This document shows, one piece after another, positions 52,262 to 62,950 of a stretch of DNA of 64,000 nucleotides (position 1 is the stretch's first letter; each line of letters opens with the position of its first letter). The DNA comes from Prosthecobacter algae (lineage in GTDB: Bacteria > Verrucomicrobiota > Verrucomicrobiia > Verrucomicrobiales > Verrucomicrobiaceae), in the NCBI RefSeq assembly GCF_039542385.1, contig NZ_BAABIA010000001.1:248001-312000 (forward strand), in the 5' to 3' direction. A program made the position numbers and the translations under genes. The notes below the pieces were generated by a model. The model saw only the letters and a program-made list of their open reading frames with translations. It was not told the DNA's origin and made no database searches.

Positions 52262-53062
52262 TTACTGGGCGGAAGCCACAGGCGGTGCGGCTGCGGCAGC
52301 CGACTTAGCGGCAGCGGTGGCAGACTGCTCCTTGGCCCACTCATCGTATTCTTTGCCATCCATAACTTCCAGCACGGCACGCATCTGAGCGTGGCCCGGG
52401 CCGCAAAGCTGACCGCAGATGATGTCCCAAGTACCTTCCTTCACCGGCTTGAACCACATGTGGGCTTTCACACCGGGGATGGCATCCTGGGCGGAACGCA
52501 TCGGCACGAGGGCCAGGTTATGGATCACATCCTTGCTGCTGACGTCGACAATGACGGGGCGGCCCACAGGAAGCTTCATGGTGCTAGGGCTGACGAAGTC
52601 GTCCTTGCCGTTCGGGTCCATGAGGTCACGGCCGGTGACGTTCGAAGGGGTAATGCCCTTCATGCTCCAGGTGCTGAGCATCATGTCATTGCCCGGATAC
52701 TGGAAGTTCCAGAGGAACTTCTCGCCCAAAGCGCGGATTTTGATGGTGTCTGGGCTGGTCGGGAAGTCGTCGGCCTGACGGGACCAGAGAGGAAAGGCGA
52801 AACCGAGGAGGAGGATGGCTTCCACCACGACCACGCCGATTTCGATGTGGGTAGATGCATGGCCACGGACGCCGTGGTAGTCGGCAGAGGGGTTTTTCGA
52901 CTTGCGAAAACGGGTGAAGGCGATCGTGAGGAAGATCGACCAGCCGATGAACAGGGCCAGCATGAACCAGTGGACGAAGCCGAGCATGTGATCCACAAGA
53001 CCGCCGTGCTCAGAGGCGTTTTGAGTGATGCCGATCCAGGTATTGATGTCAGAGACGCTCAT
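52262..53062 (-). CDS. coxB: Cytochrome c oxidase subunit II
   Basis: 266 residues. Two N-terminal membrane helices (about 25–50 and 75–95) are followed by a cupredoxin domain. The CuA ligands are complete: His181 (VIHNLALVP), Cys216 and Cys220 (CGQLCGPGH), His224 and Met227. WDIICGQLCG has Gln where many homologs have Glu; that residue binds through the backbone. There is no fused cytochrome c domain, so the enzyme is aa3-like rather than caa3 and must accept electrons from a separate cytochrome, possibly one encoded upstream (57565, 58312 or 62285). The tail is Ala-rich. Confidence 0.96.
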   Translation of the reverse strand: MSVSDINTWIGITQNASEHGGLVDHMLGFVHWFMLALFIGWSIFLTIAFTRFRKSKNPSADYHGVRGHASTHIEIGVVVVEAILLLGFAFPLWSRQADDFPTSPDTIKIRALGEKFLWNFQYPGNDMMLSTWSMKGITPSNVTGRDLMDPNGKDDFVSPSTMKLPVGRPVIVDVSSKDVIHNLALVPMRSAQDAIPGVKAHMWFKPVKEGTWDIICGQLCGPGHAQMRAVLEVMDGKEYDEWAKEQSATAAAKSAAAAAPPVASAQ

Positions 53063-53519: not shown

Positions 53520-53846
53520 TCAGTTGTTGCTGTCGTAAAAGCCGTGGAAGACCAACGGGTCACTGGCAGAGAATACGAACAGGAAGAACAACGCGATGGC
53601 GAAGGCTGCGGTGAAAGCGAGGATTTTGTAGATCAGCTTCGCCTCGTGATTCAAGTGCATGAAGATGAGGGCGACGAGACCTGCCTTGAAGGCGGCCAGG
53701 ATCATGCCCACCAGGATGTTCATGCTGTGAGTGGGCAATTCCACGTAGGAAAGACCGACCGTGGCACCGGTGAGGACCGCGAGGGCGGACCCAACGACGA
53801 TGATCTTTTTGATCGACTTGTGGATTTCTTCAGGACTGTCGGCCAT
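53520..53846 (-). CDS. Cytochrome c oxidase subunit IV
   Basis: 108 residues, three membrane segments (IIVVGSALAVLTGATVGLSYV, MNILVGMILAAFKAGLVALIFMHL, ILAFTAAFAIALFFLFVFS). The prokaryotic COX4 signature AFKAGLVALIFMHLNHE is present. It is a small stabilising subunit of the aa3-type oxidase, positioned between COX3 and the two tiny membrane proteins. Confidence 0.9.
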   Translation of the reverse strand: MADSPEEIHKSIKKIIVVGSALAVLTGATVGLSYVELPTHSMNILVGMILAAFKAGLVALIFMHLNHEAKLIYKILAFTAAFAIALFFLFVFSASDPLVFHGFYDSNN

Positions 53847-53882: not shown

Positions 53883-55298
53883 TTAGAGGAGATAAAGCAG
53901 TGGGAAAAGGAAGATCCACACCAAATCCACAAAGTGCCAGAACAGGCCGCCGACTTCGACTCGATTGGCGAGGCGCTCGGGGTCGTTGCGAAGCATCTTG
54001 CCGTCGAACAGGAGGAAGTAAGTCAGCACCAGGGCACCTGCCACCACGTGCAGACCGTGCAGGCCTGTGAGGGTGAAATAGATGGCGTAGTAGGTGTTCA
54101 GTTTTGGCGTGTAGTTGGAGTAGAAAGCGATGTCTTTCTTTTCCAGGACCACTTTAGGACCGTGGCCAGCGTGCGCGTCATGGGAGTCACCGTGAGCAGC
54201 CTTAGCTTCGGCTGCATGGCCTTCGCCATGGGCGGTAGAGGCTGCAGGGGGCGTGTCAGATTCAACCTTCAAGTAGAAGGCTTCCTTCTGATGGGTAGCG
54301 CTCTTTTGAGGATCGCGGTTCGGGTAGTGTTCCTTGAACTCTGCCTGGGCGTGGTCGCGGTTGGCAATGAAAGCTTTTTTCCAGCCTTCACCCAGATACT
54401 GGCTGCTCCAGGCGAGGGACTTCTCAGCGTCTGGGACGGATCGTGCATCCACGCCATCCACGGTGAGGGTCATTTTGTCGTCAATCAGCTTGCCTTTGGC
54501 GGTGGTGCCGTCGGCGAAAGTGATGGTATCAGCGGAGTAACCGAGAAGCTTGGAAGGCTTGACCTTGAACTTCACAGGCTGGCTGGCGACGATCTTGATC
54601 GTGGTGTCAGGGACGATGTTCAGTTCACGGGCTTTGTCGGCCTTGCCCTGATCACGCAGTTCCTGGCGGCGCTTTTCAAGGGTTTCCTTGGCGGCGGCGA
54701 CGGTCTTCTTGCGGAAGGCTTTGAAAGCGGAGGCTTCCAGGGAGAATTCTTCGCCGGAGTCGAGCTTGAAGGAAGGCAGTTCGCCGTCAACGAAAGGCAC
54801 CACGTAGCCAGCCGGGTCAGCATCAACGGCTTTGTTTTCGCCCGTGATGGTGAGGGTGAAGTCCTTAGCTTCGCCGAATTTGATTTCATAACCCTCGTCC
54901 AGGTGACCCGTGAGGAAGGTGCCATCGGTCAGCTTGACGGCGTAGTGATTGAACTTGGAGCGGTACTCAAAACCCTTGATAACCATGAAAGCCATGGCGC
55001 AAAGGATGGTGAGGGCCATGTACATCTTGAATTTGCCGATGTTACGAAGCTTCAAGTTGGCCCAGGCGAGCAAGACCGTGACGGAAGAGAAGATGAGCAC
55101 CAGGGTGTTGATGAACCCCATGGTCACGTTCAGCTCATGCACGGGCCAGTGATAGTCTGCCCCCACACGCAGGAAGATGTAGGAAGAGAAAAGGCCGCCG
55201 AAAAGCATCACCTCGGAAGCGAGGAAGAGCCAAATGCCCACTTTGGCATTGTAGAGGCCCGTGTCAGGACGGGCGGTTACGGTATAGGGGATGTCCAT
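53883..55298 (-). CDS. coxC: Cytochrome c oxidase subunit III with a ~280-residue periplasmic insertion
   Basis: 471 residues, more than twice the usual ~200 for a five-helix COX3. Helices 1–3 (YNAKVGIWLFLASEVMLFGG; TMGFINTLVLIFSSVTVLLAW; MYMALTILCAMAFMVIKGFEYRSKF) are normal, as are the last two (YYAIYFTLTGLHGLHVVAGAL; VGGLFWHFVDLVWIFLFPLLYLL). Between residues about 116 and 395 lies an extra soluble region with beta-like segments, a charged helix (about 195–225) and a His/Ala-rich stretch (about 357–379). Positive residues after helix 2 (LKLRNIGKFK) place the insertion on the periplasmic side. Its role is unknown; contact with cytochrome c or ActE/ActF is possible. Confidence 0.92.
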   Translation of the reverse strand: MDIPYTVTARPDTGLYNAKVGIWLFLASEVMLFGGLFSSYIFLRVGADYHWPVHELNVTMGFINTLVLIFSSVTVLLAWANLKLRNIGKFKMYMALTILCAMAFMVIKGFEYRSKFNHYAVKLTDGTFLTGHLDEGYEIKFGEAKDFTLTITGENKAVDADPAGYVVPFVDGELPSFKLDSGEEFSLEASAFKAFRKKTVAAAKETLEKRRQELRDQGKADKARELNIVPDTTIKIVASQPVKFKVKPSKLLGYSADTITFADGTTAKGKLIDDKMTLTVDGVDARSVPDAEKSLAWSSQYLGEGWKKAFIANRDHAQAEFKEHYPNRDPQKSATHQKEAFYLKVESDTPPAASTAHGEGHAAEAKAAHGDSHDAHAGHGPKVVLEKKDIAFYSNYTPKLNTYYAIYFTLTGLHGLHVVAGALVLTYFLLFDGKMLRNDPERLANRVEVGGLFWHFVDLVWIFLFPLLYLL

Positions 55299-55344: not shown

Positions 55345-57297
55345 TCAATGATGAGCAACCGGGGCGGGTGTGGAAGCAGGAGCGGTGGCGGCTTTGCCTG
55401 GCTCGCTTTCCCACTGGGGCAGGTAGTCCTGGGTGCAGCCAGGAACGCTGTATTCGTAAGGGCCACGGGTGACGATGGGCTCGAACGTGAAGTTGCCGTG
55501 CGGAGGTGGCGTTGGGGTGGCCCACTCGAGGGTGGTGCAATGCCATGGGTTGTCGCTGTTGGCCTTCCTACCGCCTTTGATGCTGAGGAAGACGTTCAGG
55601 ATGAAGGGCACCTGGCCCAAGGCGAGGATGGTCGCGCCGAAGGTCATCAGCACGTTCAGGCCAAGGAGGTTGTTGGGGACGTCCATGCCGAAGATACCGA
55701 AGAAGTCCGAAGTCAGCTTGGTCACCCAGTTGGAAGCGCTGCTGGTCTGTTCGAAGTACTTACCACCGTCATACCAGCGGCGGTGGAAGCCGCCCATGCC
55801 CTGAATGAACATCGGAGCAAAGATGAGGTTCATGCCGACGAGGGAAGGCCAGAAGTGCAGCTTACCCAGGAAGTCGCTCATGATGCGACCAGTGATCTTC
55901 GGATACCAGTGATACACGCCTGCGAAGAGGGCGAAGATGGTGCCCGGAGCCACAACGTAGTGGAAGTGACCGATCACGTAGTAAGTATCATGAAGGGCAA
56001 GGTCAATGAAGGTGAAAGCCAGAGGCAGACCGGTAAGACCGCCAATGCCGAACATGGGCAGGAAGGCGGATGCAAACAACATCTGCGGGGTAAACCGGAT
56101 GGAACCGCCCCAGAGGGAGATCATGAGGCCGGTGAGCAGGATCACGGAAGGCACGGAAATGAGCACCGTGGTGATCTGGAAGTAGGTGGACATCATGGTG
56201 CCCATGCCAGTGAGGTACATGTGGTGAGCCCAGACGAGGAAGCTGAGGAAGCCGAGGGTCATGGCTGCATAGACCATGGACTTGTATCCCCAAAGCGGGC
56301 GACGGGTATTGGCCGGGATGACTTCAGACAGGATGGCGAAGGCCGGAAGGATGAGCACGTACACTTCTGGGTGAGCCAGGAACCAGAAAAGGTGCTGGTA
56401 AAGCAACGGACTGCCGCCACCGGAGATATCGAGGTGCTGGCCGCCTTCCATGAGGCCTGTCGGCAGGAAGAAGCTAGAACCGAAGACGCGGTCCACGAGC
56501 TGAAGGAGTGCGGCGACTTCCAGAGGAGGGAAGGCCAGGAGGAGGAGGAAGCTGGTGACGAACATGGCCCAGCAGAAGAAAGGCATCCGCATCCAGCTCA
56601 TGCCTTTGGCGCGGAGGTTGATCACGGTGGTGATCACGTTCACGGAACCCAGAAGGGAGGCGGAGATGTTAAACACCATGGCGGTGAGCCACCAGGTGTG
56701 GCCGTGGGCCCAGACGTTTGTGACGGCCAGAGTAGTGGTGGAAGCGAGCGGGGAATACATGGTCCAGCCTGTCTGCACAGGGCCTGTGCCGACGAAGAAG
56801 CTGTAAATCATCAGGACGCCGCTGACGAAGAAGAGCCAGAAGCTCCACATGTTCAGTTTCGGGAAGGCCATGTCGATCGTGCCGATCTGGAGAGGCATGA
56901 CGAAATTGACGAAACCAGCGAAACCGAGGGGCACGATGCCAAGGAACACCATGATGGTGCCGTGCATGGCACCGAGCATGTTGTAGAGCTCGCCATTGAC
57001 GATGCCGCCAGGAGCCCAGCGACCGATGGTTTCATGGAAAAGAGGGCCGAGGATGGGGAGATTCTCCACGAACAGCAATCCTGGGACGGGCTGTCCTGGG
57101 AAGGCGATGCTCCAGCGCATGAGCAGCATGAGGAAGAAGCCCAGCAGAAGGAAAAGCAATCCGCTAAGTGCGTACTGGATGCCGATGACCTTGTGGTCAC
57201 AGGAGAAGATGTATTTGCCGAAGAATCCCGGCTCGTGGTGGTCATGCGCATGATCAGCTCCGTGGGAGTGATCGTGGGTGGTGGCGGCGGCGCTCAT
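55345..57297 (-). CDS. coxA: Cytochrome c oxidase subunit I (aa3-type), K-channel Lys absent
   Basis: 650 residues, about 12 helices, with a His-rich N-terminus (THDHSHGADHAHDHHEP). All metal ligands are present: His112 (low-spin heme a), His309 with Tyr313 in AHPEVY (cross-linked pair), His358–His359 (CuB), His444 and His446 in IGHFHYV. The D-channel start Asp142 (IDMAFPKLN) and Glu311 are kept. The canonical K-channel block PTGVKVFSW reads PSVILLTGL, so the lysine is Leu387. It reduces O2 to water and should pump protons through the D path. It begins the second transcriptional block after a 267-bp gap. Confidence 0.96.
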   Translation of the reverse strand: MSAAATTHDHSHGADHAHDHHEPGFFGKYIFSCDHKVIGIQYALSGLLFLLLGFFLMLLMRWSIAFPGQPVPGLLFVENLPILGPLFHETIGRWAPGGIVNGELYNMLGAMHGTIMVFLGIVPLGFAGFVNFVMPLQIGTIDMAFPKLNMWSFWLFFVSGVLMIYSFFVGTGPVQTGWTMYSPLASTTTLAVTNVWAHGHTWWLTAMVFNISASLLGSVNVITTVINLRAKGMSWMRMPFFCWAMFVTSFLLLLAFPPLEVAALLQLVDRVFGSSFFLPTGLMEGGQHLDISGGGSPLLYQHLFWFLAHPEVYVLILPAFAILSEVIPANTRRPLWGYKSMVYAAMTLGFLSFLVWAHHMYLTGMGTMMSTYFQITTVLISVPSVILLTGLMISLWGGSIRFTPQMLFASAFLPMFGIGGLTGLPLAFTFIDLALHDTYYVIGHFHYVVAPGTIFALFAGVYHWYPKITGRIMSDFLGKLHFWPSLVGMNLIFAPMFIQGMGGFHRRWYDGGKYFEQTSSASNWVTKLTSDFFGIFGMDVPNNLLGLNVLMTFGATILALGQVPFILNVFLSIKGGRKANSDNPWHCTTLEWATPTPPPHGNFTFEPIVTRGPYEYSVPGCTQDYLPQWESEPGKAATAPASTPAPVAHH

Positions 57298-57564: not shown

Positions 57565-58284
57565 TTACTTGGCAGCAGGGGCCGTGGCACCAGGGCCGGC
57601 AGGAATGTCTCCAGGGACGTTTTTGTCTTTGAAAGCTTCAAGGTCAGCCATGGTCCACTGAGTGGTGCGTTTTTCATCCGCACGGACTTTTTCGACCATT
57701 TCCTTGGTGATCATCGGGGCTTCGTTGCCCCAGGTGTTGCGGATGTAAGTCAGCACGTTGGCGAGATCCGTGGCGGACATGCCAGCACCGAAGGCCTGCA
57801 TGCCGCCGGGGAAGTTGTAGTTCTGTCCTTTGACAGTGACCTGACCGATCAAGCCATGTTGAACAACGCGAATCAAACGCTCTGTGCCACCCAAGACCCA
57901 CTCCGAACCTGCGAGTGGCGGATACTGGCCAGCAAGACCGGCACCGTTGCCCTGATGGCAACCACCACAAACAGCGTAACCATTGGCGCCTTTTTTCATG
58001 GCGGTTTGGAAGGGGTCGGCTGTTTCAACTCCGCCACCTGCACCACCACGAGGGTCGGAGGCCTTGTTGGAGGCAAAAGGATTGCTGACATCGAAGCTAT
58101 ATCCACCGGTCATGGGGCCAAGCTGGCCGCCGGCGATGATGGCGACGATCATGAACAAGAAGATGACCCACATTGGTGCGGGTTCAGTGCCTGGGGCCAG
58201 ATCGGCCTTTTCACGCTTCACGGCGGCGTGAAGGCGGTCCAGATCGTTGCTGTCGGGATTGGGGAAGGAGGAAGGAGCGCTCAT
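57565..58284 (-). CDS. Membrane-anchored monoheme cytochrome c (CcoP-position)
   Basis: 239 residues. A cytoplasmic N-terminus, one membrane segment (MWVIFLFMIVAIIAGGQLG, about 38–56) and a class I cytochrome c domain with CGGCH at 106–110, QYPPLAGSEWV and a Met ligand in the GGMQAFG region. The tail is Ala/Pro/Gly-rich. By position it takes the place of CcoP of cbb3 oxidases, but it has one heme instead of two. It may transfer electrons between the ActE/CcoO-like hemes and CuA of COX2. Confidence 0.87.
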   Translation of the reverse strand: MSAPSSFPNPDSNDLDRLHAAVKREKADLAPGTEPAPMWVIFLFMIVAIIAGGQLGPMTGGYSFDVSNPFASNKASDPRGGAGGGVETADPFQTAMKKGANGYAVCGGCHQGNGAGLAGQYPPLAGSEWVLGGTERLIRVVQHGLIGQVTVKGQNYNFPGGMQAFGAGMSATDLANVLTYIRNTWGNEAPMITKEMVEKVRADEKRTTQWTMADLEAFKDKNVPGDIPAGPGATAPAAK

Positions 58285-58311: not shown

Positions 58312-59001
58312 TTATTTCTTGGCGGCAGCAGCAGGGGCTGCAGCGACAGCGGCGGATTCGCCAGGAACAGGGTAATCTTTCTTGAGGGAGAGGAGGTAAT
58401 CCACCAGGGCTTCAGCCTCAGGCGTCGGGATCACTTCATAGCCTTCTTTCACGGCGAATTTCTTCGGCAGCTTCAAGGCTTTGTCAGCAGGCTGACCCTG
58501 GGCGAGGCGCTCAGTGTAAAGGTGAGCGAAGGAGGGCATGTTGGACCAATCGTGAAGGGACCGGGGAGCAAACAGCATCTGGTGGATCTTGCTGCGCTCT
58601 GGAGCACGCCAGCCGTAGTTGGTAAGGTCTGGACCGTTGCGCTGGACACCGAGGAAAGCGAAGGGTTCGCCAAGGTAGTCACGAAGGTTGTTGGAACGGA
58701 TTGCGGCAGCCGGGCGGCCTTCCTGGTCCTGGCCCCAGCCTTTGCGCCAGCCGTCGAGAGCAAGCTGCGTCGGGCGGATCATCTGGGTGTGGCACTGGAC
58801 GCAACCCTCACGGGCATAGACCAACTGGCCCTGACGATTGATGGGAGCGGGTGGGTAGAGACCTTCCACGCCGTCACGATCTTTGTCGTAAGCGATTTGG
58901 GTGAGGGCCTGGTATTTGACCGCCGGGATGACGATGAGGCACAGCCAAGGGAGACCAAAGCTGGCAATCAGGGCGAGAATAAAGGTGCGGAACTGGCTCA
59001 T
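58312..59001 (-). CDS. CcoO-like monoheme cytochrome c (cbb3 subunit II family)
   Basis: 229 residues. One N-terminal anchor (FILALIASFGLPWLCLIVIP) and the CcoO heme block GQLVYAREGCVQCHTQMIRP with CVQCH at 67–71. The following WG..SxxxPxxYDxP-type segment is only partly kept, and the tail is Ala-rich. CcoO carries electrons to the CcoN active site in cbb3 oxidases. Its heme site is intact here although the CcoN-like partner seems inactive. It overlaps the CcoN-like stop by 4 bp, implying translational coupling. Confidence 0.87.
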   Translation of the reverse strand: MSQFRTFILALIASFGLPWLCLIVIPAVKYQALTQIAYDKDRDGVEGLYPPAPINRQGQLVYAREGCVQCHTQMIRPTQLALDGWRKGWGQDQEGRPAAAIRSNNLRDYLGEPFAFLGVQRNGPDLTNYGWRAPERSKIHQMLFAPRSLHDWSNMPSFAHLYTERLAQGQPADKALKLPKKFAVKEGYEVIPTPEAEALVDYLLSLKKDYPVPGESAAVAAAPAAAAKK

Positions 59002-60476
59002 GCGTGGGCGGCGTGGGGAAGGGCTTCTTCGTGATCATGCTCAAGCAGCGTCGGGGCAGAGCTGCGGCGGCCAAGACCGGCGACCATGAGCATGAGATGG
59101 ATGAGGAACCAAACATTGGACCAAGTGATCAGGCCCCATGCGATGGCGCGGGCGATGATGTAGGGACGAAGGTTCAGGGCAAGCTGCATGAAATCCTGAT
59201 CCCACATTTCGGGGGAGTTTAGGTCGCCGCCCTGCTGGGCACCGGCGACGAGGCTGGTGACGACGATGGCACCAATGCCATAAACGGAGAACCAGAAGTG
59301 ATTGCGGATGAGGCGGACGGAGAGCCACTCGCAGCCGGTGAGGCGAGGAACGATGTAGTAGATGGCTCCGAAGATGGTCATGCTGAAGAAGCCATAGACG
59401 GCGACGATCTGGAAACCATACCAAGCCTGGGTGAACTGGAGGGCGGCACCTGTGGAGAAGTTGGAGATCAGGGCCAGGATGGCACCGCTAACCGGGTAGA
59501 AAAGGGCTCCGAAAAAGACGAAACGCAGGGTTGGGCTGGAGGCGACCATGCTGTGCTTGCCCAGCGTGGTGAGGTGATGGTTCAGACCTACCACTCCGAC
59601 AGGAATCAGAAGGAGAACACCCGTGGCAGCGCCGATGGCTGGCATCCAGGCGGGAAGAGGGCCGCCCATGTAGTGCTGCATACCCGTCCAACCGCCGAGG
59701 ACTGCCAGGAGCCAGAAACCAATCTGGGAAAGCTGGGAGCTGGCGATGGGTTGACCAGTGATTTTCGGGATGAAGTAGTAAGCTGCACCAATCGCCACAG
59801 GAGCGAAGAACAGCAGAATCATCGTGTGAACGTACCAAGCATTGATACCGGCACCCAGAGCGCCCAGGCCTGGAAGGCAATGAAGGGCGACATTGGCGGT
59901 GACGAAAATCCAGGGGAACCAGAAGCACGCACCGATGATGTACCAGGTGCTGACCATGAAACCTTCGGGACGGAAAGCGCGGCCAAACATGAACACCATG
60001 GGCCAGGCAAAAGCGAGGAAACTGATGAGCAGCACGGGCCAGATGAAGGACGGCATTTCCAGCCACTGCATGGAGGTGCTTTTGCCGAGGAGAATCGCGA
60101 CGAGACCGATGGTGACGGCGATGTTCCAGAAGATGGCGGCCACGTAGAGGACGCTTTTGCCTGTGCGAAGTTCCTGACCAGAACGACGGGCCATGATCCA
60201 GAGCATGGCACCGAGGCCAGCCTGAACACCCCAGCCGTAAACGAGGGCATTGAGGTGAGTGGGCTGGAGGCGGCCGTATTGAAGCACGCTGCAAGCGCCG
60301 AGGAAGTCGGGAGCGAACTGCTTGATGGCGGCCAAGACGCCCAGGATGGTGGAAGCCATCAGCCAGAAAGCGCCGTTGAGGAAGAGGAAGAGCACCGGGC
60401 CTTTCACTGACTTATCAATCGCCGCGCGGCGAAGGTTGTCAGCGAGGGTATCCGTGGATGCTGGGGTGGTCTGCAT
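58998..60476 (-). CDS. CcoN-like protein (cbb3 subunit I homolog) lacking most active-site ligands
   Basis: 492 residues, about 12 helices. The ATG at 60476 (MQTTPASTDTLADNL) is preferred to an in-frame TTG at 60491. It resembles cbb3 subunit I across its length: RLQPTHLNALVYGWG, INAWYVHTM...YYFIPKITG, SSPTLRFVFFGALFYPVSG and FGAIYYIVPRLTG. Of the canonical ligands, His74 (helix 2) and His217 (helix 6) are present. The CuB pair PHHLHY reads TGMQHY, and the helix-10 GHVH reads GFQI (355–357). By ungapped alignment to a remembered cbb3 consensus it therefore lacks the binuclear site and the second heme b ligand. It may be a scaffold, quinone or electron-transfer subunit; oxidase activity is unlikely. 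The C-terminus is His-rich. Confidence 0.88.
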   Translation of the reverse strand: MQTTPASTDTLADNLRRAAIDKSVKGPVLFLFLNGAFWLMASTILGVLAAIKQFAPDFLGACSVLQYGRLQPTHLNALVYGWGVQAGLGAMLWIMARRSGQELRTGKSVLYVAAIFWNIAVTIGLVAILLGKSTSMQWLEMPSFIWPVLLISFLAFAWPMVFMFGRAFRPEGFMVSTWYIIGACFWFPWIFVTANVALHCLPGLGALGAGINAWYVHTMILLFFAPVAIGAAYYFIPKITGQPIASSQLSQIGFWLLAVLGGWTGMQHYMGGPLPAWMPAIGAATGVLLLIPVGVVGLNHHLTTLGKHSMVASSPTLRFVFFGALFYPVSGAILALISNFSTGAALQFTQAWYGFQIVAVYGFFSMTIFGAIYYIVPRLTGCEWLSVRLIRNHFWFSVYGIGAIVVTSLVAGAQQGGDLNSPEMWDQDFMQLALNLRPYIIARAIAWGLITWSNVWFLIHLMLMVAGLGRRSSAPTLLEHDHEEALPHAAHA

Positions 60477-60497: not shown

Positions 60498-60881
60498 TCA
60501 GTTCGCAGGAGGAGTGGCTGCAGGGGCGGCGGGAGCCGGAGCAGCAGGGGCCGGGGCGGCCGCCTGTTTCAGTTGGGTGGGGGAACCAGGGACGACCTGG
60601 GTGCTGACGCCTGCGGGTTTGCCCTTCAGGGTTTCGAGCGTTTTGGTGAAGATGACGGCCTTTTTGGCGGGATCGTTCAGGCCCATCTTGGCGACGAGCT
60701 CATTCTGCGCTTTGAGGATCTCTTCCTTGTTGGCGAGACGTTCAGGCGCACGAGGATCTTCAGCGCCTTGGGTGGCAAAGGAAGCCTGGATTACATAAAA
60801 CAAAACGGCGAAGCTGGCGAATGCGCCAAGCACCCAAAGGAAGGTGGCTCCGGCTTTCGAGGATGTTGCAGTCGAAGACAT
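60498..60881 (-). CDS. Small single-helix membrane protein between ActF and the CcoN-like protein
   Basis: 127 residues. One N-terminal membrane segment (FLWVLGAFASFAVLFYVIQASFA) is followed by a charged helical stretch (APERLANKEEILKAQNELVAKMG) and a low-complexity Ala/Pro tail. No known family recognised. The gaps to its neighbours are only 8 and 21 bp, so it is certainly in the same operon. It probably is a linker or assembly subunit for the ActEF–CcoNO module. Confidence 0.65.
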   Translation of the reverse strand: MSSTATSSKAGATFLWVLGAFASFAVLFYVIQASFATQGAEDPRAPERLANKEEILKAQNELVAKMGLNDPAKKAVIFTKTLETLKGKPAGVSTQVVPGSPTQLKQAAAPAPAAPAPAAPAATPPAN

Positions 60882-60889
60882 GAAAGGGA

Positions 60890-62266
60890 TCAGTTGATGA
60901 CGTTGGCGGACTCGAGGAGGCGCGGGTCGCGGCAGGGGTAGAGGCTGTAACGGGAAAGGCTGCGGAGGAAGACGAAGCCCATGGTGCCGACAACGGCAAA
61001 CAAGGCGACCACATCACCTACCCAGGCACCGTCCACCCACCAGCCGAGGCCGAGGGAAGGGCCGCGCTCTGGGATGACGTTCCAGTAGATGTCCACCAGA
61101 TGCATGAAGAGAATCCAGAGGCAGATCAGACAGACGGCGACGGGGTTCTTCTTGCGGGGCTGGGAGAGAAGAAGGACGAAAGGACCGATGAAGTGGCCCA
61201 CCACGATAAACATGGACACCCAGCGCCAGCCTTCCGTGTTACGGGTCAGGTAGAAGCGAGTTTCTTCAGTGATGTTGGCGTACCAGATGAGGAAATACTG
61301 GCTGAAGGCGATGTAAGCCCAGAACACCGTGAAGGCGAAGAGCAGCTTGCCCATGAGGTGGTAGTGTTCATCGGTGACGACCTGCTTCATGTAACCGAGG
61401 CTCTTGAGCCAAGTGACAAGGAGGATCGTAAGGGCCATGGAGGCCCAGGCGCAGCCGGCGAAGATGTAAACACCCCACATGGTGGAGAACCAGGAGTAGT
61501 CGAGGGTCATCAGCCAATCCACGGCCGCGAAGGTGACCGTCAGAGCGTAGAAGAGGAGCCAGCGGCAGGAGAACGTGCGGGATTTGATGGTGTGAGTGAT
61601 GTCACCATCTTGATCCTGCATGACTGACTTCTTGCGCAGGGTGCGGGCGATGTGCCAGAGAATGAAGAAGTAGAAGGCGAAGCGGAAATACCAGGCATCG
61701 ATGTTCAGATAACCATACTTCTCGACCAGGATGTGGAGATGTGGGTTGCTGAGGGAATTGTGATGAAGCTGCTCCTTGATATTGTGAGGAGCGTGATGCT
61801 CTTCGCCTTCTTCATGGGCAGGGGCAGCGGCGGTTTCAGCGTGTTTGTCTGCACCAGCGTGCTCCGAAGCCACAAGCTGGGTCTTGGCTTCACGGTGATG
61901 GTTCATCCACTCGTATAGATGCGTCTGCACCTGAGGGAAGAGGAGGGGGATGCCCAAAAAAGCGAGCGGGAGAACCATGTTGGCCATTTGCTCCCAAAGA
62001 CGACGAACGGCCACGCCCCAGCCGGAGTTGGAGGCGCTGTGGAGGAGGATCCAGAAGCAGCCGCCGCAGACGAAAGTAAAAGCAAAGAAGAAGGCGAACA
62101 GCCAGCTATATGCAAAAACATCCGGCTTGGCGAAAAACATGTAGGCAGAGCCTGCGATGCCCAGCAAGCCAGCAGCCCCGAAGGCGCTGATGAGCTTGCC
62201 GCCTTTGGCGGTTTCGAATTTCTCACCGCCCGGAGGCAGGTCGTTGAATGTGACGTGGTGACTCAT
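60890..62266 (-). CDS. actF: Alternative complex III, quinol-binding subunit ActF
   Basis: 458 residues with about ten membrane segments. The NrfD/ActF-like core reads DWLMTLDYSWFSTMWGVYIFAGC, FSQYFLIWYANITEETRFYLTRN and HLVDIYWNVIPERG. ActF is one of the quinol-site membrane subunits of alternative complex III, which oxidises menaquinol and reduces a cytochrome. Between residues about 120 and 180 an extra loop is His/Glu/Ala-rich (HAETAAAPAHEEGEEHHAPH). It lies 18 bp after actE. ActA–D (pentaheme, Mo/FeS and NrfD-like subunits) are not adjacent. Confidence 0.9.
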   Translation of the reverse strand: MSHHVTFNDLPPGGEKFETAKGGKLISAFGAAGLLGIAGSAYMFFAKPDVFAYSWLFAFFFAFTFVCGGCFWILLHSASNSGWGVAVRRLWEQMANMVLPLAFLGIPLLFPQVQTHLYEWMNHHREAKTQLVASEHAGADKHAETAAAPAHEEGEEHHAPHNIKEQLHHNSLSNPHLHILVEKYGYLNIDAWYFRFAFYFFILWHIARTLRKKSVMQDQDGDITHTIKSRTFSCRWLLFYALTVTFAAVDWLMTLDYSWFSTMWGVYIFAGCAWASMALTILLVTWLKSLGYMKQVVTDEHYHLMGKLLFAFTVFWAYIAFSQYFLIWYANITEETRFYLTRNTEGWRWVSMFIVVGHFIGPFVLLLSQPRKKNPVAVCLICLWILFMHLVDIYWNVIPERGPSLGLGWWVDGAWVGDVVALFAVVGTMGFVFLRSLSRYSLYPCRDPRLLESANVIN

Positions 62267-62284
62267 GCCTTGAAATGCCTGCTG

Positions 62285-62950
62285 TTACTGGACGGACACG
62301 TTGTTTTCCTTCACCGCCACCTGCATGGCGCGGATGTAGGCCACGATGGCCCAGCGATCTTGAACGGTGATGTTGCCGCCGTAGGGGCCCATCAGTCCTT
62401 TGCCGTTCGTGATAACATCGTAAATGGCACCGTCCGCACGGTAGGCACCCGCATTGGCTGGGTCGGTGCTGCCGTTTTGGTGCAGGTTGAAGGCGGTCAT
62501 GATGCCGTACTTCGAGGTGACGCCCTTGCCGTTGCCGGAGGCACCGTGGCAGACGGCGCAATAGATGTTAAACTGGCGCTCACCGCGCTCCAGAAGGCCT
62601 TTGCTCAGGGTCACTTCCGCAGGGAGGCCGTCTCCGTAGTAGTCACCGATTTTGCCAGTGCTGTAATAGTCGAGTCCGTTGGCGAAACCATACTGCGGCG
62701 GCTTGAAATCAGGGGCGGAAGCAGGCTTGGCCGGGATTTCGAAACCGACTGGGACCGTGCCTTTGACAGGGCGGCGGGCACCGAGGCCATCAGCAAAGAA
62801 GTCGCTCTTGGCTTGATACTTCACTTTGGCCTGATGATCCATGTCTTGGAAGATTTCCAGGGGCGGCAATTCAGACTTGCTGCCACGTGTGCCAAAGGCA
62901 GCGACGACGATCGCGGCAACAAAGAGGTAGCTGAGGAAGAAATATTTCAT
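62285..62950 (-). CDS. actE: Alternative complex III, monoheme cytochrome c subunit ActE
   Basis: 221 residues. An N-terminal hydrophobic anchor (YFFLSYLFVAAIVVAAFG) is followed by the ActE block FQDMDHQAKVKYQAKSDFFADG...RPVKGTVPVG, then a cytochrome c domain with CAVCH at 131–135. Its heme is the likely outlet of alternative complex III toward the oxidase. It is the first gene of the respiratory cluster, preceded by a 135-bp gap that includes a perfect CRP/FNR-like palindrome. Confidence 0.92.
   Translation of the reverse strand: MKYFFLSYLFVAAIVVAAFGTRGSKSELPPLEIFQDMDHQAKVKYQAKSDFFADGLGARRPVKGTVPVGFEIPAKPASAPDFKPPQYGFANGLDYYSTGKIGDYYGDGLPAEVTLSKGLLERGERQFNIYCAVCHGASGNGKGVTSKYGIMTAFNLHQNGSTDPANAGAYRADGAIYDVITNGKGLMGPYGGNITVQDRWAIVAYIRAMQVAVKENNVSVQ

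Follow-up and report, generated by a model that had tools for sequence, protein, structure and literature searches.

A gene in an alternative complex III (ACIII) operon of Prosthecobacter algae encodes a full-length homologue of the cbb3 oxidase subunit I, CcoN, in which a usable ligand set for heme b3 and CuB is lacking. We call this protein NLP; the window is the whole stretch of 64,000 nucleotides in which the gene lies. Comparison with relatives shows that the loss of ligands is polyphyletic and started from ancestors whose active site was complete and whose gene lay in this operon too. NLP is probably a subunit I of the C family of heme-copper oxidases that was retired from catalysis and now acts as a cofactor-free scaffold. 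That ACIII can have a C-type oxidase gene as its neighbour was already known; for the repeated loss of the metal site, no earlier description was found in the open full-text literature, a scope outside which Refojo 2010 and 2013 fall.

The protein and its neighbourhood

The top match of NLP in the PDB, a whole-length alignment, is cbb3 subunit N (3mk7_A, 5.2e-26); the profile of the NLP family reaches 9g6b_A at 1.3e-43, and NLP matches Pfam COX1 at 6.5e-46. The AlphaFold2 model, built with 39 homologues, has a pLDDT of 90.6 and a pTM of 0.91. In structural comparison, five solved CcoN entries rank first (Z 45.8-47.6, rmsd 1.9-2.4 Å, 443-451 residues), with 3mk7 at Z 47.6 and 1.9 Å over 443 residues, while NOR reaches a Z of about 40-42 and the A-type oxidases about 35; an intact-type homologue yields an equivalent helix pattern. 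Both the full-length sequence homology and the CcoN-type fold that characterize the C type of the heme-copper oxidase superfamily are thus found in NLP, and the model indicates that the complete fold is kept, with only the cofactor chemistry absent. The whole-length alignment with cbb3 subunit I that a first-pass annotation of this DNA had proposed is borne out by the PDB, COX1 and fold matches, and the structure prediction that it had suggested as a check returns the retained CcoN fold just described.

Compared with the CcoN subunits of 3mk7, 8smr and 6xkw, NLP shares the fold over about 443 residues, including the twelve-helix core, and has likewise a CcoO-like mono-heme cytochrome c partner encoded just downstream. 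It differs in that none of the three cofactors, heme b, heme b3 and CuB, has a complete ligand set, in the absence of the helix VII tyrosine, in its score of 121 bits with the ccoN model TIGR00780, which misses the equivalog cut-off of 583, and in its place in an ACIII operon.

Features of the window around the gene of NLP
Feature	Description	Position	Strand	Evidence
NLP	CcoN-fold protein without the heme/CuB ligand set, 492 aa	58998..60476	(-)	homology, model, fold comparison
OLP	CcoO-like membrane-anchored mono-heme cytochrome c	58312..59001	(-)	Pfam FixO 2.1e-17; PDB CcoO 1.2e-12
cytc	mono-heme cytochrome c (CXXCH), CcoP-like domain	57565..58284	(-)	Pfam Cytochrom_C 7.8e-11; conserved adjacency to OLP
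127-aa ORF	N-terminal hydrophobic segment, Pro/Ala-rich tail	60498..60881	(-)	kept in Prosthecobacter relatives
ActF	NrfD-type quinone-site subunit of ACIII	60890..62266	(-)	PDB 6f0k_F 4.9e-56
ActE	mono-heme cytochrome c of ACIII	62285..62950	(-)	PDB 6f0k_E 1.5e-26
CoxA	aa3-type subunit I	55345..57297	(-)	Pfam COX1 1.7e-125
CoxC	subunit III, long hydrophilic insert	53883..55298	(-)	sequence and family matches
Subunit IV	caa3 type	53520..53846	(-)	TIGR02229
CoxB	subunit II with CuA motif (CGQLCGPGHAQM)	52262..53062	(-)	motif and family matches

The order of transcription is ActE, ActF, the 127-aa ORF, NLP, OLP, cytc, and then the aa3 oxidase operon (CoxA, CoxC, subunit IV, CoxB, CtaA, CtaB and Sco). 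ActE and ActF both match chains of solved ACIII, and OLP has what identifies a CcoO, a FixO domain with a CXXCH heme c site: it keeps CVQCH and the methionine of its NMPSF motif. An operon with ActE, ActF and a CcoO-like protein whose heme site is intact, as first annotated, is therefore present. The start of OLP overlaps the stop of NLP by 4 bases, which suggests coupled translation. The translation of CoxA contains all the motifs for heme a, heme a3 and CuB (GAMHG, HPEVY, AHHMY and GHFHY).

Two smaller observations concern these neighbours. Family profile searches gave no family match for the 127-aa ORF; the gene at its position in the f2 relatives (L156 10231-10914, (-)) has a similar N-terminus and, after it, a cytochrome c domain. 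The ORF of the window may thus have lost a heme domain. The insert of CoxC is also His-rich and spans roughly residues 119-394, between two COX3 stretches; the COX III of the same f2 relatives (L156) likewise matches as two separated pieces.

Statements about whole genomes rest here on sequence searches of those genomes. In the genome of the window, ActABCD is found on contig C1 at about 134.1-140.4 kb, about 170 kb away; these genes (L181 5170-11380) are split from ActEF (60890-62950 in the window), while the two groups are adjacent in family members L049, L060, L065 and L067. A canonical fused CcoNO, with all ligands present, lies at C2:515.9 kb, and a further short heme-copper protein is read as NorB.

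The gene of NLP is found throughout Prosthecobacter, which supplies its closest named relatives, in related genera and across the class Verrucomicrobiae. A scan of contigs with the single NLP protein, which detects close relatives only, matched Verrucomicrobiota exclusively. The order ActE-ActF-NLP-OLP-cytc is conserved across the class, usually with ActA-D upstream, and is followed by aa3 genes in several families.

Such a neighbourhood might point to a role in assembly, with NLP as a placeholder that stabilizes or matures OLP, cytc or the aa3 oxidase and then leaves. The 4-base overlap, the fact that the natural partner of CcoO is CcoN, and the proximity of Cox and Cta genes all agree with this idea. 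However, NLP stays between ActF and OLP in the Act block even when no cox genes follow, and CtaA, CtaB and Sco are already encoded in the window: we regard a role in assembly as quite unlikely.

Ligand positions in NLP and its relatives

Positions are numbered as in P. stutzeri CcoN, whose six histidines and one tyrosine are H60, H207, Y251, H257, H258, H345 and H347. In cbb3 oxidases, H345 is the ligand of heme b3, H347 is a ligand of heme b, and H257-H258 is the CuB pair. The equivalents in NLP are H74 for H60, H217 for H207, G261 for Y251, Q267 for H257 and H268 for H258; in helix X, GHVH becomes GFQI, with F355 at the position of heme b3 and I357 at that of heme b. Only three of the six histidines of a C-type subunit I are thus present (H74, H217 and H268), and the cross-linkable tyrosine of helix VII is a glycine; no lost-type relative has a tyrosine there.

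The first-pass annotation had read the helix X pair in the same way, as GFQI at 355–357, but its reading of the CuB pair as Gly265-Met266 is two residues off: without gaps, W-T-G-M-Q-H pairs with W-A-G-P-H-H. The pair is Q267-H268, and one of the two CuB histidines reported as gone survives. The conclusion that no normal heme–CuB centre is possible holds in spite of the corrected register. His74 and His217, listed as remaining, are indeed there, but they are not features of the family: at H74, H217 and H268, relatives can have F, S, N, K, R or T.

Could NLP still be a terminal oxidase or a gas reductase that uses non-canonical ligands? The three remaining histidines are what speaks for it. Against it, these three vary freely in relatives, the axial position of heme b3 is taken by F, Y, M, L, V or Q, the helix VII tyrosine is lost, and an intact aa3 oxidase is encoded next door; the proposal is very improbable. 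A usable ligand set for the low-spin heme b is likewise missing in nearly all relatives, and no conserved replacement His, Met or Cys was found in the lost clades.

Two simpler accounts of the substitutions were rejected. His300 and His301 are not displaced CuB ligands, since the NHH motif is found in intact homologues besides all the canonical ligands. A frameshift or sequencing error is excluded by the open frames of close relatives, and by substitutions that differ between clades (H to Q, F, A or S).

The extent of the loss was evaluated on a sample of 96 ACIII-linked homologues, scored at the six histidines and the tyrosine. All seven positions are kept in 25 of them, the other 71 keep between zero and three, and none falls between these two groups. 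The loss is not due to chance, being seen in 71 of the 96 homologues, all with open frames. Whether the substitutions are conserved among homologues, a check suggested at the outset, thus has a divided answer: loss is widespread among relatives, but the replacing residues differ from clade to clade. Pfam COX1 scores are 234-262 bits for intact members, 49-163 for lost ones and 195 in family f10. In f10 and in one member of f6, the b3 and CuB ligands and the tyrosine are lost and the heme b pair H60/H347 is kept; these homologues look like intermediates. The intact versions, which in related families sit where NLP does in the operon, are apparently catalytic.

All loci examined, of the intact and of the lost type, have an OLP that retains CXXCH. 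Among the OLP genes of L137-L256, the variant CxYCH is found in 25/25 intact-type loci and in 7/71 lost-type loci; this covariation with the state of NLP comes down to three independent tree pairs, only one of them concordant, and is not significant, a hint of co-evolution at most. Besides the lost-type, ACIII-linked NLP, some f9 genomes (L162, L164 and L171) have a second CcoN that stands alone and retains every ligand; the gene after it encodes a two-heme CcoO fusion.

Repeated losses and selection

The tree of NLP was computed with the seven ligand columns excluded and with canonical CcoN as outgroup. Three losses have to be placed on it, each forced by starred branches, and a tree with a single lost clade is worse by 110 log-likelihood units (p-AU 0.00025). 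The tree of ActC, a slowly evolving partner, has nine changes, at least five of them forced by starred branches; because long branches meet there, it leaves the precise count of losses uncertain. The AU test and the ActC tree together rule out a single ancestral loss. The changes are read as losses, since it is implausible that seven residues would be regained. L226 is the most clear-cut example: its ActC is 93% identical to that of intact relatives, its NLP only about 60%, and all seven positions are changed.

NLP is under purifying selection: within the genus, its dN/dS is 0.03-0.17, like those of CoxA and ActF. When pairs of equal ActC or ActF divergence are compared, lost NLPs have changed more rapidly than intact ones: at ActC identity of 70-80%, the median pairwise identity of NLP is 59% for intact members and 32-41% for lost ones. 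Intact members share 148 invariant positions; both large lost clades have given up 41 of them and keep 30; the released positions include Tyr251, H207, H257, H258, H345 and H347, together with other invariants of canonical CcoN. These comparisons suggest that the constraint on the core was released after ligand loss and that the protein itself is still maintained.

The acceleration after ligand loss is what one would expect of a decaying pseudogene or of a neutral passenger of the operon. However, frames are open throughout the sampled set, dN/dS is like that of CoxA and the fold is predicted with high confidence; decay is thus barely credible, and the original claim that NLP is maintained as a protein agrees with the open frames and with purifying selection.

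The retained positions can be interpreted in another way, namely that NLP has taken up a new role in redox or quinone chemistry: it would bind quinone, or heme through new ligands, and relay electrons or couple the electron flow of ACIII to proton transfer. The twelve-helix core and the 30 positions survive in both lost clades, the f10 and f6 lineages keep the H60/H347 heme b pair, and the neighbouring ActF is by homology a quinone-site subunit. On the other hand, the lost clades have no conserved new His, Met or Cys, and polar or aromatic core residues conserved in intact members are released (the Y251 column; Y327 and S250 in P0001 numbering). A new function of this kind is possible but unlikely. 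It is also doubtful that the metal-free fold gained an active role in ACIII, for example as a quinone-binding or proton-conducting module that aids energy conservation; if it did, the core of a heme-copper oxidase would have been reused as a redox-silent coupling subunit of ACIII.

A probable scaffold role and the methanotroph genes

Of the functions first proposed for NLP, the scaffold is the best fit and the electron relay does not stand, given that the heme ligands drift and no His, Met or Cys replaces them. Synteny and knowledge of the family suggest that NLP would be a cofactor-free membrane scaffold in an ACIII assembly with OLP and cytochrome c, where it would anchor the heme c domain of OLP. 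Electrons could then pass from menaquinol to the hemes of ActA and ActE, to the heme c of OLP or cytc, and to the CuA of an A-type oxidase; in this genome, the acceptor would be the neighbouring aa3 oxidase, and electrons would bypass NLP. With another oxidase as acceptor, the catalytic centre of NLP would become dispensable, and its docking surface would still be needed.

At least one A-family oxidase is found in all lost-type genomes tested. It is also found in most intact-type genomes, so redundancy alone does not predict loss. In f10 and in the lost clade f9/f13, the flanking DNA that was fetched with the operon contains no coxA, which implies that a fixed partnership of ACIII and aa3 is not universal, and the faster evolution of lost NLPs implies that the constraint on the surface is not very strict.

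ACIII-aa3 supercomplexes are established in Flavobacterium johnsoniae and Rhodothermus marinus (PMC8552683; PMC8361435); contact with the oxidase is through COX III (PMC8361435) and electrons leave from ActA/ActE (PMC8552683). As in the ACIII-aa3 of F. johnsoniae and the ACIII-caa3 of R. marinus, ActEF is here encoded beside aa3 genes and a path from heme c to CuA is expected; no module resembling CcoN/CcoO is described for these supercomplexes in PMC8361435 and PMC8552683. In the bc1-cbb3 supercomplexes of Rhodobacter capsulatus (6xkw) and Pseudomonas aeruginosa (8smr), a CcoN fold is likewise associated with a quinol-oxidizing complex, but there CcoN is the catalytic oxidase, whereas NLP would keep the fold without the cofactors.

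The metal centre is what defines a heme-copper oxidase: NLP fails this defining test, yet it is maintained. If the scaffold reading is correct, these proteins form a family of respiratory pseudoenzymes and a natural record of the passage from enzyme to scaffold, in which intact members can be compared with fully lost ones and with intermediates that have the heme b pair only. In much of Verrucomicrobiae, annotations that rely only on the family name would be misleading.

C-type oxidase genes adjoin ACIII in Opitutaceae and in verrucomicrobial methanotrophs (PMC8498564, citing Refojo 2010). NLP has the same operon position, and the intact members, L138-L148 and others, fit that description; most members here, including those of Kam1 and of a putative SolV, differ from the published enzyme in having lost the ligands. 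In verrucomicrobial methanotrophs, the ACIII-adjacent enzyme has been called a cbb3 oxidase (PMC6688271; PMC8498564), a cbb3-type oxidase is also listed in PMC10205796, and PMC6688271 ties the ACIII-adjacent enzyme to a high oxygen affinity that would explain growth at low oxygen. In Kam1 and putative SolV, the gene between ActF and OLP is a lost-type NLP, with S, E, S, S, H, F and V at H60, H207, Y251, H257, H258, H345 and H347, and searches of both genomes found no other C-type subunit I. It thus appears that the published "cbb3 oxidase" of Methylacidiphilum Kam1 and putative SolV is not an oxygen reductase, in which case the oxygen affinity must come from other oxidases. Family f8, to which these two genomes belong, carries several copies of pmoA. 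In one methanotroph locus (L175 10300-17600), about 7.4 kb separate ActF from NLP, which fits a nos cluster inside the ACIII cluster, as reported for M. caldifontis IT6 (PMC11102522).
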